A stretch of 34,308 nt of DNA from an uncultured bacterium (GTDB lineage: Bacteria > Bacteroidota > Bacteroidia > Sphingobacteriales > Sphingobacteriaceae). The notes below the pieces were generated by a model. It did not search any database. It had not been told where the DNA came from and saw only the letters and a list, made by a program, of their open reading frames with translations. This document shows, piece by piece, positions 4,054 to 5,570 of the stretch; positions within the stretch are counted from its first letter, which is position 1; each line of letters starts with the position of its first letter. The DNA lies in NCBI GenBank assembly GCA_903838995.1, contig CAIMAP010000170.1:1-34308 (forward strand), written 5' to 3'. Position numbers and translations under genes: made by a program.

Positions 4054-4063
4054 GAAAAGAGGT
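4054..4063 (+). promoter_or_regulatory. Extended Shine-Dalgarno of rpsU
   Basis: GAAAAGAGGT can pair with the 16S rRNA tail (complement GAAAGGAGGT) with one mismatch, and GAGGT is 7 nt from the ATG. This is exceptional here because nearly all other genes have A-rich leaders without such a motif. In Bacteroidota, strong Shine-Dalgarno sequences on rpsU are known to let ribosomes lacking bS21 translate it (autoregulation shown in Flavobacterium johnsoniae). Confidence 0.7.
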
Positions 4064-4070
4064 AAATACT

Positions 4071-4259
4071 ATGATCATTATCAACATTAAAGAGAACGAA
4101 TCTATCGATAAAGCGTTAAAACGCTTTAAGAAGAAATTTGAAAAAACTGGCGTTCTTCGCGAGTTGCGTAGTCGTCAAGCATTCGAGAAACCTTCTATTA
4201 CAAGAAGAACAACTGTTAAACGCGCTATCTACAAACTAGGATTAAATTCGGAAGAGTAA
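4071..4259 (+). CDS. rpsU: 30S ribosomal protein bS21
   Basis: The 62 residues are the normal size for bS21. The N-terminal block with ESIDKALKRFKKKFEKTG and the basic middle (ELRSRQAFEKPS, then RRTTVKRA) are typical. In Bacteroidota ribosomes bS21 helps to hide the anti-Shine-Dalgarno tail of 16S rRNA, which explains why the genes here lack Shine-Dalgarno motifs. Its own leader carries a strong one, consistent with autoregulation. It has its own promoter (4001-4034) and an intrinsic terminator (4281-4320) before xerC. Confidence 0.96.
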   Translation: MIIINIKENESIDKALKRFKKKFEKTGVLRELRSRQAFEKPSITRRTTVKRAIYKLGLNSEE

Positions 4260-4280
4260 TTCCTTGTTTTTAACATATTA

Positions 4281-4320
4281 AAGTTGTATCTTGATTTTAT
4301 TCAGGGTACAACTTTTTTTT
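4281..4320 (+). terminator. Intrinsic terminator of rpsU, abutting the xerC start
   Basis: AAGTTGTA (4281-4288) pairs with TACAACTT (4307-4314), with an 18-nt loop and a continuous run of T to 4321. The xerC ATG at 4323 follows at once, so read-through transcripts would carry this hairpin as the xerC leader. Confidence 0.72.
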
Positions 4321-4322
4321 TG

Positions 4323-5207
4323 ATGCTAACCGATCCATTTTTCCAGTACCTCCAATTCGAAAAGCGAATTTCAGCACATACGCTCACTGCGTATAAAAGT
4401 GATCTTTTGCAATTTCAAACTTACTTACAATCCGAATACAGTCTAACAAACGATTTCAATGTTTCGCATACGCTTATTCGATCTTGGATAGTTTCGCTAA
4501 TGGAACAGGGTTTAAATCCTCGAAGTGTAAATCGAAAAATCACCACATTAAAAACTTTTTATAAATTTTTAATGCGCGAGGGTTTGCAGGATAAAAATCC
4601 AATGCTTAAAATCCAATCGCCCAAAACCGCAAAAAGATTACCTGTTTTTGTAGAAGAAGAAAACATCAATCATTTTTTTGACGATCAAGAACCGAGTTCC
4701 GATTTCGAATCTACTAGAGATCAATTAATTTTATTATTATTATATAGCACTGGCATTCGACTCGCAGAACTAGTAGGGCTAAAGCTTTCAGACTTTGATA
4801 TACCAGCAAAAACGATTAAAGTATTAGGTAAAAGAAATAAACAAAGAATCATTCCAATTGGCGCAGAAATTATAGCAGCGCAAGAACAATATGTGCAAAG
4901 CTGCAAGCTTATTCAATTTGAAAACCAAACCGAACATTTATTTAAATTAATTAATGGAAAGCCAATTTACCCAAAAATGGTTTATCGATTGGTAAATGAT
5001 AATTTATCAAAAATTACTACGTTAAGTAAAAAAAGCCCACACGTATTGAGGCATACATTTGCCACCCATTTATTAAATAACGGAGCCGATTTAAATGCGA
5101 TTAAAGAATTACTAGGTCATTCGAGTTTAGCAGCTACACAAGTTTATACCCATAATTCAATTGAAAAGCTGAAAAATATTTACAAACAGTCCCATCCAAG
5201 GGGTTAA
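4323..5207 (+). CDS. xerC: Tyrosine recombinase XerC/XerD type
   Basis: The 294 residues fit Xer recombinases, which resolve chromosome dimers at dif. The N-terminal SAM-like DNA-binding domain covers about 1-90 (EKRISAHTLTAYKSDL, RSVNRKITTLKTFY). The catalytic domain follows: Arg in STGIRLAEL (about 146), Lys in VLGKRNKQR (about 170), HVLRH (about 239-243), LGHSS (about 263) and the nucleophile Tyr in TQVYTH (about 275). All expected catalytic residues are present. I chose the ATG at 4323 because the upstream in-frame ATG at 4284 lies inside the rpsU terminator stem and would add 13 non-conserved residues. Placement between rpsU and hpf is the usual Bacteroidota context. XerC versus XerD cannot be settled from one gene. 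Confidence 0.9.
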   Translation: MLTDPFFQYLQFEKRISAHTLTAYKSDLLQFQTYLQSEYSLTNDFNVSHTLIRSWIVSLMEQGLNPRSVNRKITTLKTFYKFLMREGLQDKNPMLKIQSPKTAKRLPVFVEEENINHFFDDQEPSSDFESTRDQLILLLLYSTGIRLAELVGLKLSDFDIPAKTIKVLGKRNKQRIIPIGAEIIAAQEQYVQSCKLIQFENQTEHLFKLINGKPIYPKMVYRLVNDNLSKITTLSKKSPHVLRHTFATHLLNNGADLNAIKELLGHSSLAATQVYTHNSIEKLKNIYKQSHPRG

Positions 5208-5211
5208 AAAA

Positions 5212-5222
5212 AAGGAGGAAAT
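5212..5222 (+). promoter_or_regulatory. Perfect Shine-Dalgarno of hpf
   Basis: AAAGGAGG is followed by AAAT and then the ATG at 5223. Eight consecutive bases are complementary to the 16S rRNA tail, longer than for rpsU. This is the strongest such motif I found in the window and stands out against the otherwise Shine-Dalgarno-less starts. Confidence 0.75.
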
Positions 5223-5522
5223 ATGAAAATCAATGTTCAATCAATTCATTTTGATGCAGATGTGCAATTATTAGCATTTATCGAGAAAAAGGGGAGTAAG
5301 CTGGCGCAGTTTTTTGATCAAATTATTGATGCAGAAGCCATTCTTAGACTAGAAAAATCATCGGAAGACCATAAAAATAAATTAGTTGAATTTAAAGTAA
5401 ATATTCCAGGTCAATTGTTATTTGCTAAAGACTATGCAAAATCATTCGAAGAAGCAATTGATTTATGTATTGAGTCGCTGCGTAAACAAATTCTAAAGCA
5501 CAAAGAAAAGATCGCCGTTTAG
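5223..5522 (+). CDS. hpf: Ribosome hibernation promoting factor / ribosome-associated translation inhibitor
   Basis: The 99 residues match the short (RaiA/HPF) form, which binds the 30S decoding centre in stationary phase and blocks mRNA and tRNA. The start MKINVQSIHFDAD with the beta strand followed by a helix (LLAFIEKKGSKLAQFF), the second strand block (AEAILRLEKS, KLVEFKVNIPG) and the basic C-terminal helix (IESLRKQILKHKEK) fit the S30AE fold. There is no C-terminal dimerisation domain, so it is not the long form. It begins 15 bp after xerC with an unusually strong Shine-Dalgarno, and ends in a clear terminator. Confidence 0.93.
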   Translation: MKINVQSIHFDADVQLLAFIEKKGSKLAQFFDQIIDAEAILRLEKSSEDHKNKLVEFKVNIPGQLLFAKDYAKSFEEAIDLCIESLRKQILKHKEKIAV

Positions 5523-5540
5523 TCTAATTTCTAAAAATTA

Positions 5541-5570
5541 AAAAGGGGAGCTTTGGTTCCCCTTTTTTAT
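5541..5570 (+). terminator. Intrinsic terminator of hpf
   Basis: AAAAGGGGA (5541-5549) pairs with TCCCCTTTT (5558-5566) around a loop GCTTTGGT, followed by further T residues. The rest of the gap to the first tRNA (5571-5793) holds the tRNA promoter at 5697-5726 and nothing else that I can recognise. Confidence 0.85.

Follow-up and report, generated by a model that had tools for sequence, protein, structure and literature searches.

Bacteroidota for the most part make no use of the classical Shine-Dalgarno (SD) sequence. The question raised by this locus is whether the gene for the ribosome hibernation-promoting factor, hpf, starts from a genuine SD sequence, and whether such a sequence could tie HPF production to the state of the ribosome. 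We analyzed a window of 34,308 nucleotides (the whole stretch of DNA under study) from an uncultured member of the Sphingobacteriaceae. A sequence-only reading of this DNA had proposed that hpf carries the strongest SD in the window and that ribosomes lacking bS21 would translate it preferentially. The relevant features, all on the forward strand, are as follows.

4054..4063, +, degraded extended motif of rpsU, GAAAAGAGGT, with one internal mismatch relative to GAAAGGAGGT
4071..4259, +, rpsU, encoding bS21 (62 aa; PF01165), with Tyr54 present on alignment with F. johnsoniae bS21 (7jil)
4280..4315, +, intrinsic terminator-like stem of 15 pairs plus a T run between rpsU and xerC, predicted from sequence
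4323..5207, +, xerC-like tyrosine recombinase (PF00589, PF02899); ATG 4323 adopted, where the ORF list gives TTG 4284
5211..5218, +, hpf SD motif AAAGGAGG, complementary to the assumed 16S tail over 8 consecutive bases, -10.35 kcal/mol
5219..5222, +, spacer AAAT, 4 nt, read from the sequence
5223..5522, +, hpf, short ribosome hibernation-promoting factor, 99 aa (PF02482; TIGR00741 above cut-off), ATG 5223-5225
5540..5567, +, predicted terminator-like hairpin (intrinsic type) 3' of hpf

We scored start sites as contiguous helices with Watson-Crick and G-U pairs, using Turner-2004-type stacks plus initiation, against the tail UCACCUCCUUUCU. This tail is assumed, on the basis of what is known of Bacteroidota and of the GAAAGGAGGTAT rpsU motifs in relatives, which match it; we found no 16S gene in the assembly of the source organism, and the tail pattern had no match in relatives. 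Open reading frames were delimited by a mechanical rule that takes the first ATG as the start, so individual starts may be wrong. On this scale, a full 13-bp rpsU-type helix scores -21.0 kcal/mol and AGGAGGU scores -10.28 kcal/mol. Among the 31 ORFs of the window, we found that hpf (-10.35 kcal/mol) ranks ahead of rpsU (-5.39) and of the third-best start (-4.9), as had been proposed. The eight bases complementary to the assumed tail and the 4-nt spacer were also found as described. AAAGGAGG occurs once in the window when both strands are counted. The xerC stop lies at 5205-5207, which leaves 15 nt between the end of xerC and the hpf ATG, and xerC itself starts without a motif (-2.62 kcal/mol). 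A 4-nt spacer is short for an SD.

To determine if related hpf genes lack a strong motif, which would have spoken against the proposal, we collected 74 Sphingobacteriaceae loci with leader sequence and set aside a divergent hpf paralogue of genome G012. We found that all 74 hpf starts score at or below -7 kcal/mol (about -7 to -12 kcal/mol), compared with 1 of the 74 adjacent xerC starts. GGAGG is present in 72 leaders and GGAG in the other 2. Among the 72, the motif lies 4 nt from the ATG in 61 and 5 nt in 11. This constancy accompanies synonymous drift in the gene, where the commonest base at hpf third codon positions averages 0.56, and shuffled leaders contain GGAGG in 1.6% of cases. The motif is found in the named genera Pedobacter, Sphingobacterium, Mucilaginibacter, Daejeonella, Parapedobacter, and Pelobium; among named records, a Lake Erken metagenome bin (L215; 94% HPF identity) is the nearest. 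There are two exceptions: one Sphingobacteriales MAG (L235) has no motif, and Mucilaginibacter hurinus has a weaker CGGAGG. Local RNA structure gave no consistent pattern of SD sequestration in nine leaders. Because all 74 hpf starts but only one xerC start in the same loci carry such complementarity, we concluded that the hpf site is a genuine SD sequence under selection.

We also noted several features of hpf within the family. The rpsU motif stands about 7 to 13 nt from its start, and in the same genomes hpf has a much shorter spacing, 4 to 5 nt (hpf leaders L009-L104). The second, divergent hpf copy of G012 (L083, G012:C2; 48% identity) has no motif. In G022:C1:88602-88889 (L098), part of the hpf match is interrupted by several in-frame stops, and the gene is possibly decayed or frameshifted. 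No hpf match was present in 10 of 151 family genomes, e.g., G033, G127, and G132; 5 of these 10 reach a completeness of 90% or more and show little contamination, and some of the absences may thus reflect genuine loss.

The genome was said to lack SDs otherwise, and this did not hold. In a 587-kb sample of the genome with 498 ORFs, 9 starts score at or below -8 kcal/mol, versus 2 in a mock region further upstream. These are rplE (-14.85 kcal/mol), hpf, rsmH (-10.35), rpsR (-10.31), a lytic transglycosylase-like gene (named from its sequence, without a profile scan), rplI (-9.42), rplX, rplF, and rplN. Thus, rplE is stronger than hpf, and rsmH and rpsR equal it. Strong motifs occur in 9 of 498 starts (about 2% of sampled genes), and hpf is one of a set made up chiefly of ribosomal protein genes. 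A whole-genome search for AAGGAGGN3-9ATG gave 9 matches and 9 control matches. Of the 8 matches read, the real starts were those of rplI, the transglycosylase-like gene, rsmH, nuoJ, a deoxyhypusine synthase-like gene, and hpf. Across the Sphingobacteriaceae, forward counts of this pattern were broadly similar to control counts, with a modest excess in some genera. In a relative (G005; 800 kb), hpf is fourth of 733 starts by energy. We concluded that strong motifs are rare and that hpf belongs to a small set leaning to translation genes.

Some members of this set were observed in their own right. The strongest SD found in the source genome is that of rplE, AGGGGAGGTGATAAAATA-ATG (L449 8553 (+), contig C56 of G000). 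The SD of rsmH, which encodes the 16S rRNA C1402 methyltransferase (L170 11250 (-), L295-L321), equals or exceeds that of hpf, reaching -14.8 kcal/mol; the majority of the Sphingobacteriaceae genera sampled have it, though some do not. The rplI SD (L325-L351) is found in nearly all sampled genomes of the family, which agrees with earlier reports of SDs on ribosomal protein genes. In G005, a gene judged from its sequence to be murC-like (G005:C1:96091 (+), L387) has AGAAAGGAGG immediately before its start (-14.78 kcal/mol).

The adjacency of rpsU, xerC, and hpf had been put forward as a sign of shared control, and the evidence did not support this. The terminator-like stem and T run part rpsU from xerC, which weakens the argument, and such an element is present in the window and in 62 of 67 Sphingobacteriaceae loci. 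Extended rpsU motifs score -14 to -16.5 kcal/mol in most genera of the family. In the window's genus (g1) and in g23, the rpsU motif is GAAAAGAGGT, whose internal mismatch reduces it to -5.4 kcal/mol as a contiguous helix; with the mismatch allowed (duplexfold, on a different energy scale), rpsU scores -11.2 and hpf -12.2. Across families of the class, both genes carry the motif (the extended one for rpsU) in 2, hpf alone in 13, rpsU alone in 7, and neither in 17 (Fisher p = 0.44). We therefore rejected, at the level of families, a coupling of the hpf motif to the rpsU motif. There was also no association with the rpsR motif (6/15 versus 4/14, p = 0.70). Single mismatches break the rpsU motif in other genera too, as AGAAGGGTGGTAT or AGAAAGGTGGTAT, while hpf keeps GGAGG (broken motifs at window positions 4054-4063 and in L022, L027, L082, and L099).

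Outside the Sphingobacteriaceae, the hpf motif is patchy. Of 51 families sampled from the class, 17 have it (the family itself and 16 of 50 others); a family counted as positive if at least half of its sampled loci had the motif, and most of the other families were represented by one or two genomes. Two thirds of the sampled families are without it. A XerC tree gave 11 changes for gains and losses of the motif with most branches unresolved, and hence we make no claim on its origins.

How might the hpf SD be used? In F. johnsoniae, the 16S tail is held by bS21, bS18, and bS6, and mutation or depletion of bS21 raised the output of strong-SD reporters, a tuf reporter with AGGAGGU among them, by 1.4- to over 2-fold (PMC9976891). 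The residue mutated there, Tyr54 (PMC9976891), is conserved in the bS21 of the window and in 67 of 67 Sphingobacteriaceae bS21 proteins. The pairing energy of hpf (-10.35 kcal/mol) is about that of AGGAGGU on our scale. It falls short of the -13 kcal/mol that is characteristic of rpsU autoregulation (McNutt et al. 2023, PMC9976891); in F. johnsoniae, rpsU is the sole gene reported with such a motif (PMC9976891). By this analogy, a link between hpf and bS21 is not unreasonable, and the conserved motif suggests that HPF production may depend on a special ribosome state.

We propose that in the Sphingobacteriaceae and some other Bacteroidia, a small, mostly translation-related set of genes would be initiated through pairing to the 16S tail, unlike the majority of genes. 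In Bacteroidia, the tail is normally held by bS21, bS18, and bS6, and for this reason hpf would be translated best by 30S subunits with a free tail, e.g., those without bS21. Because its energy equals that of the responding tuf reporter, the preference of hpf for such subunits would be modest, about 1.5- to 2-fold, unlike an rpsU-type switch. We give an even chance to this explanation as a whole, in which selection keeps the hpf SD, hpf belongs to the small SD-using set, and tail-free 30S subunits favor it modestly. The motif, its conservation, its fixed spacing, its independence from the rpsU and rpsR motifs, and the bS21 Tyr54 are established by comparison of the sequences; from the analogy we infer that ribosomes with an exposed tail use the motif, and likewise whatever effect this may have on hibernation. 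A more speculative extension, which we think unlikely, is that 30S subunits whose tail is exposed, either because they are incomplete or because they have lost bS21, would selectively translate a small set including hpf and rsmH, so that defective subunits would promote their own silencing or completion.

The main rival is reinitiation, in which the motif would hold ribosomes that finish xerC 12 to 20 nt upstream and let them start again on hpf; the motif would then set the xerC:hpf ratio, with no role for bS21. Consistently with this, the xerC-hpf gap is 12 to 20 nt in nearly all family loci, and the motif-bearing rplI and rsmH also appear close behind an upstream gene. The gap data weaken this reading. 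In L025 and L037 the gap is 91 to 92 nt, yet AAAGGAGG or TGGAGGT still adjoins the hpf ATG, and in other families the motif persists at gaps of up to 227 nt. Families without the motif have similarly short gaps of 11 to 38 nt, so closeness to xerC is neither needed nor sufficient. We therefore rejected a dependence of the motif on a short gap and regard reinitiation as a doubtful, though still plausible, account. Alternatively, the motif could be an ordinary booster of strength for a single well-expressed gene, if normal ribosomes of this lineage free the tail often enough, with no regulation by ribosome composition. Similar motifs on several ribosomal protein genes fit this idea. In contrast, tuf with a strong motif was slightly less active in wild-type F. 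johnsoniae (PMC9976891), and the equal numbers of genome-wide and control matches (9 versus 9) show no enrichment of the motif before ATG. This makes a simple booster rather unlikely.

The full circuit of the sequence-only reading is that bS21-deficient ribosomes preferentially make HPF, so that ribosome composition would trigger hibernation jointly with rpsU. The match in energy to the responding tuf reporter and the conserved Tyr54 favor such a circuit, but rpsU is probably terminated separately, its motif is degraded in the genus, and the rpsU and hpf motifs do not co-occur. As a full circuit we consider it improbable. That the motif arose by chance or is a functionless inherited relic is very hard to credit; AAAGG is cheap to form in an A-rich leader, but GGAGG is kept across some 23 genera at the frequency given above, far from what shuffled leaders yield, despite synonymous drift.

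The preferred reading, modest use of the hpf SD by tail-free 30S subunits, could connect ribosome composition with hibernation. The widely conserved SD also offers a second, ready target on which the idea of specialised ribosomes could be examined, and Pedobacter and Sphingobacterium are among the culturable genera that carry it. Full-text literature searches turned up no account of an SD before Bacteroidota hpf (supplementary tables and Jha et al. 2021 being outside their scope), in keeping with the suggestion that the motif was previously undescribed. In the Flavobacteriales, SD-dependent control appears limited to rpsU, and SD-bearing ribosomal protein genes are listed in other orders; the survey of McNutt et al. 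beyond the Flavobacteriales covers ribosomal protein genes (PMC9976891).

Among known systems, Francisella shows ribosome heterogeneity tied to S21 (PMC9578407) and one bS21 paralogue in hibernating ribosomes (PMC13122176). The likeness is that the state of bS21 is linked to gene expression; the difference is that bS21 paralogues vary there and no hpf start-site motif is involved. With rpsU autoregulation in F. johnsoniae (PMC9976891), the hpf case shares a strong SD in an SD-scarce Bacteroidia genome, a ribosome-associated product, and bS21 Tyr54. It differs in having 8 bp, -10.35 kcal/mol, and a 4-nt spacer rather than 9 to 13 bp and energies below -13 kcal/mol, in being read here from sequence alone, and in being unlinked to the rpsU motif across families. 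The SD-bearing ribosomal protein genes of Bacteroidia include rpsR, rplE, rplF, rplI, and rplX (Jha et al. 2021, as summarised in PMC9976891). As far as that summary goes, hpf resembles them in comparable energies (modes of -8 to -12), a role in the translation machinery, and a lineage-patchy distribution, and differs as a hibernation factor outside that ribosomal-gene screen. Like the SD-bearing translation genes, hpf has strong complementarity at the normal position, above background and conserved in relatives; unlike the ribosomal-gene set, its motif is found in families whose rpsU and rpsR are without one. Thus, hpf is a new addition to the known motif-bearing translation genes of Bacteroidia, and its part in a hibernation circuit is hypothetical.
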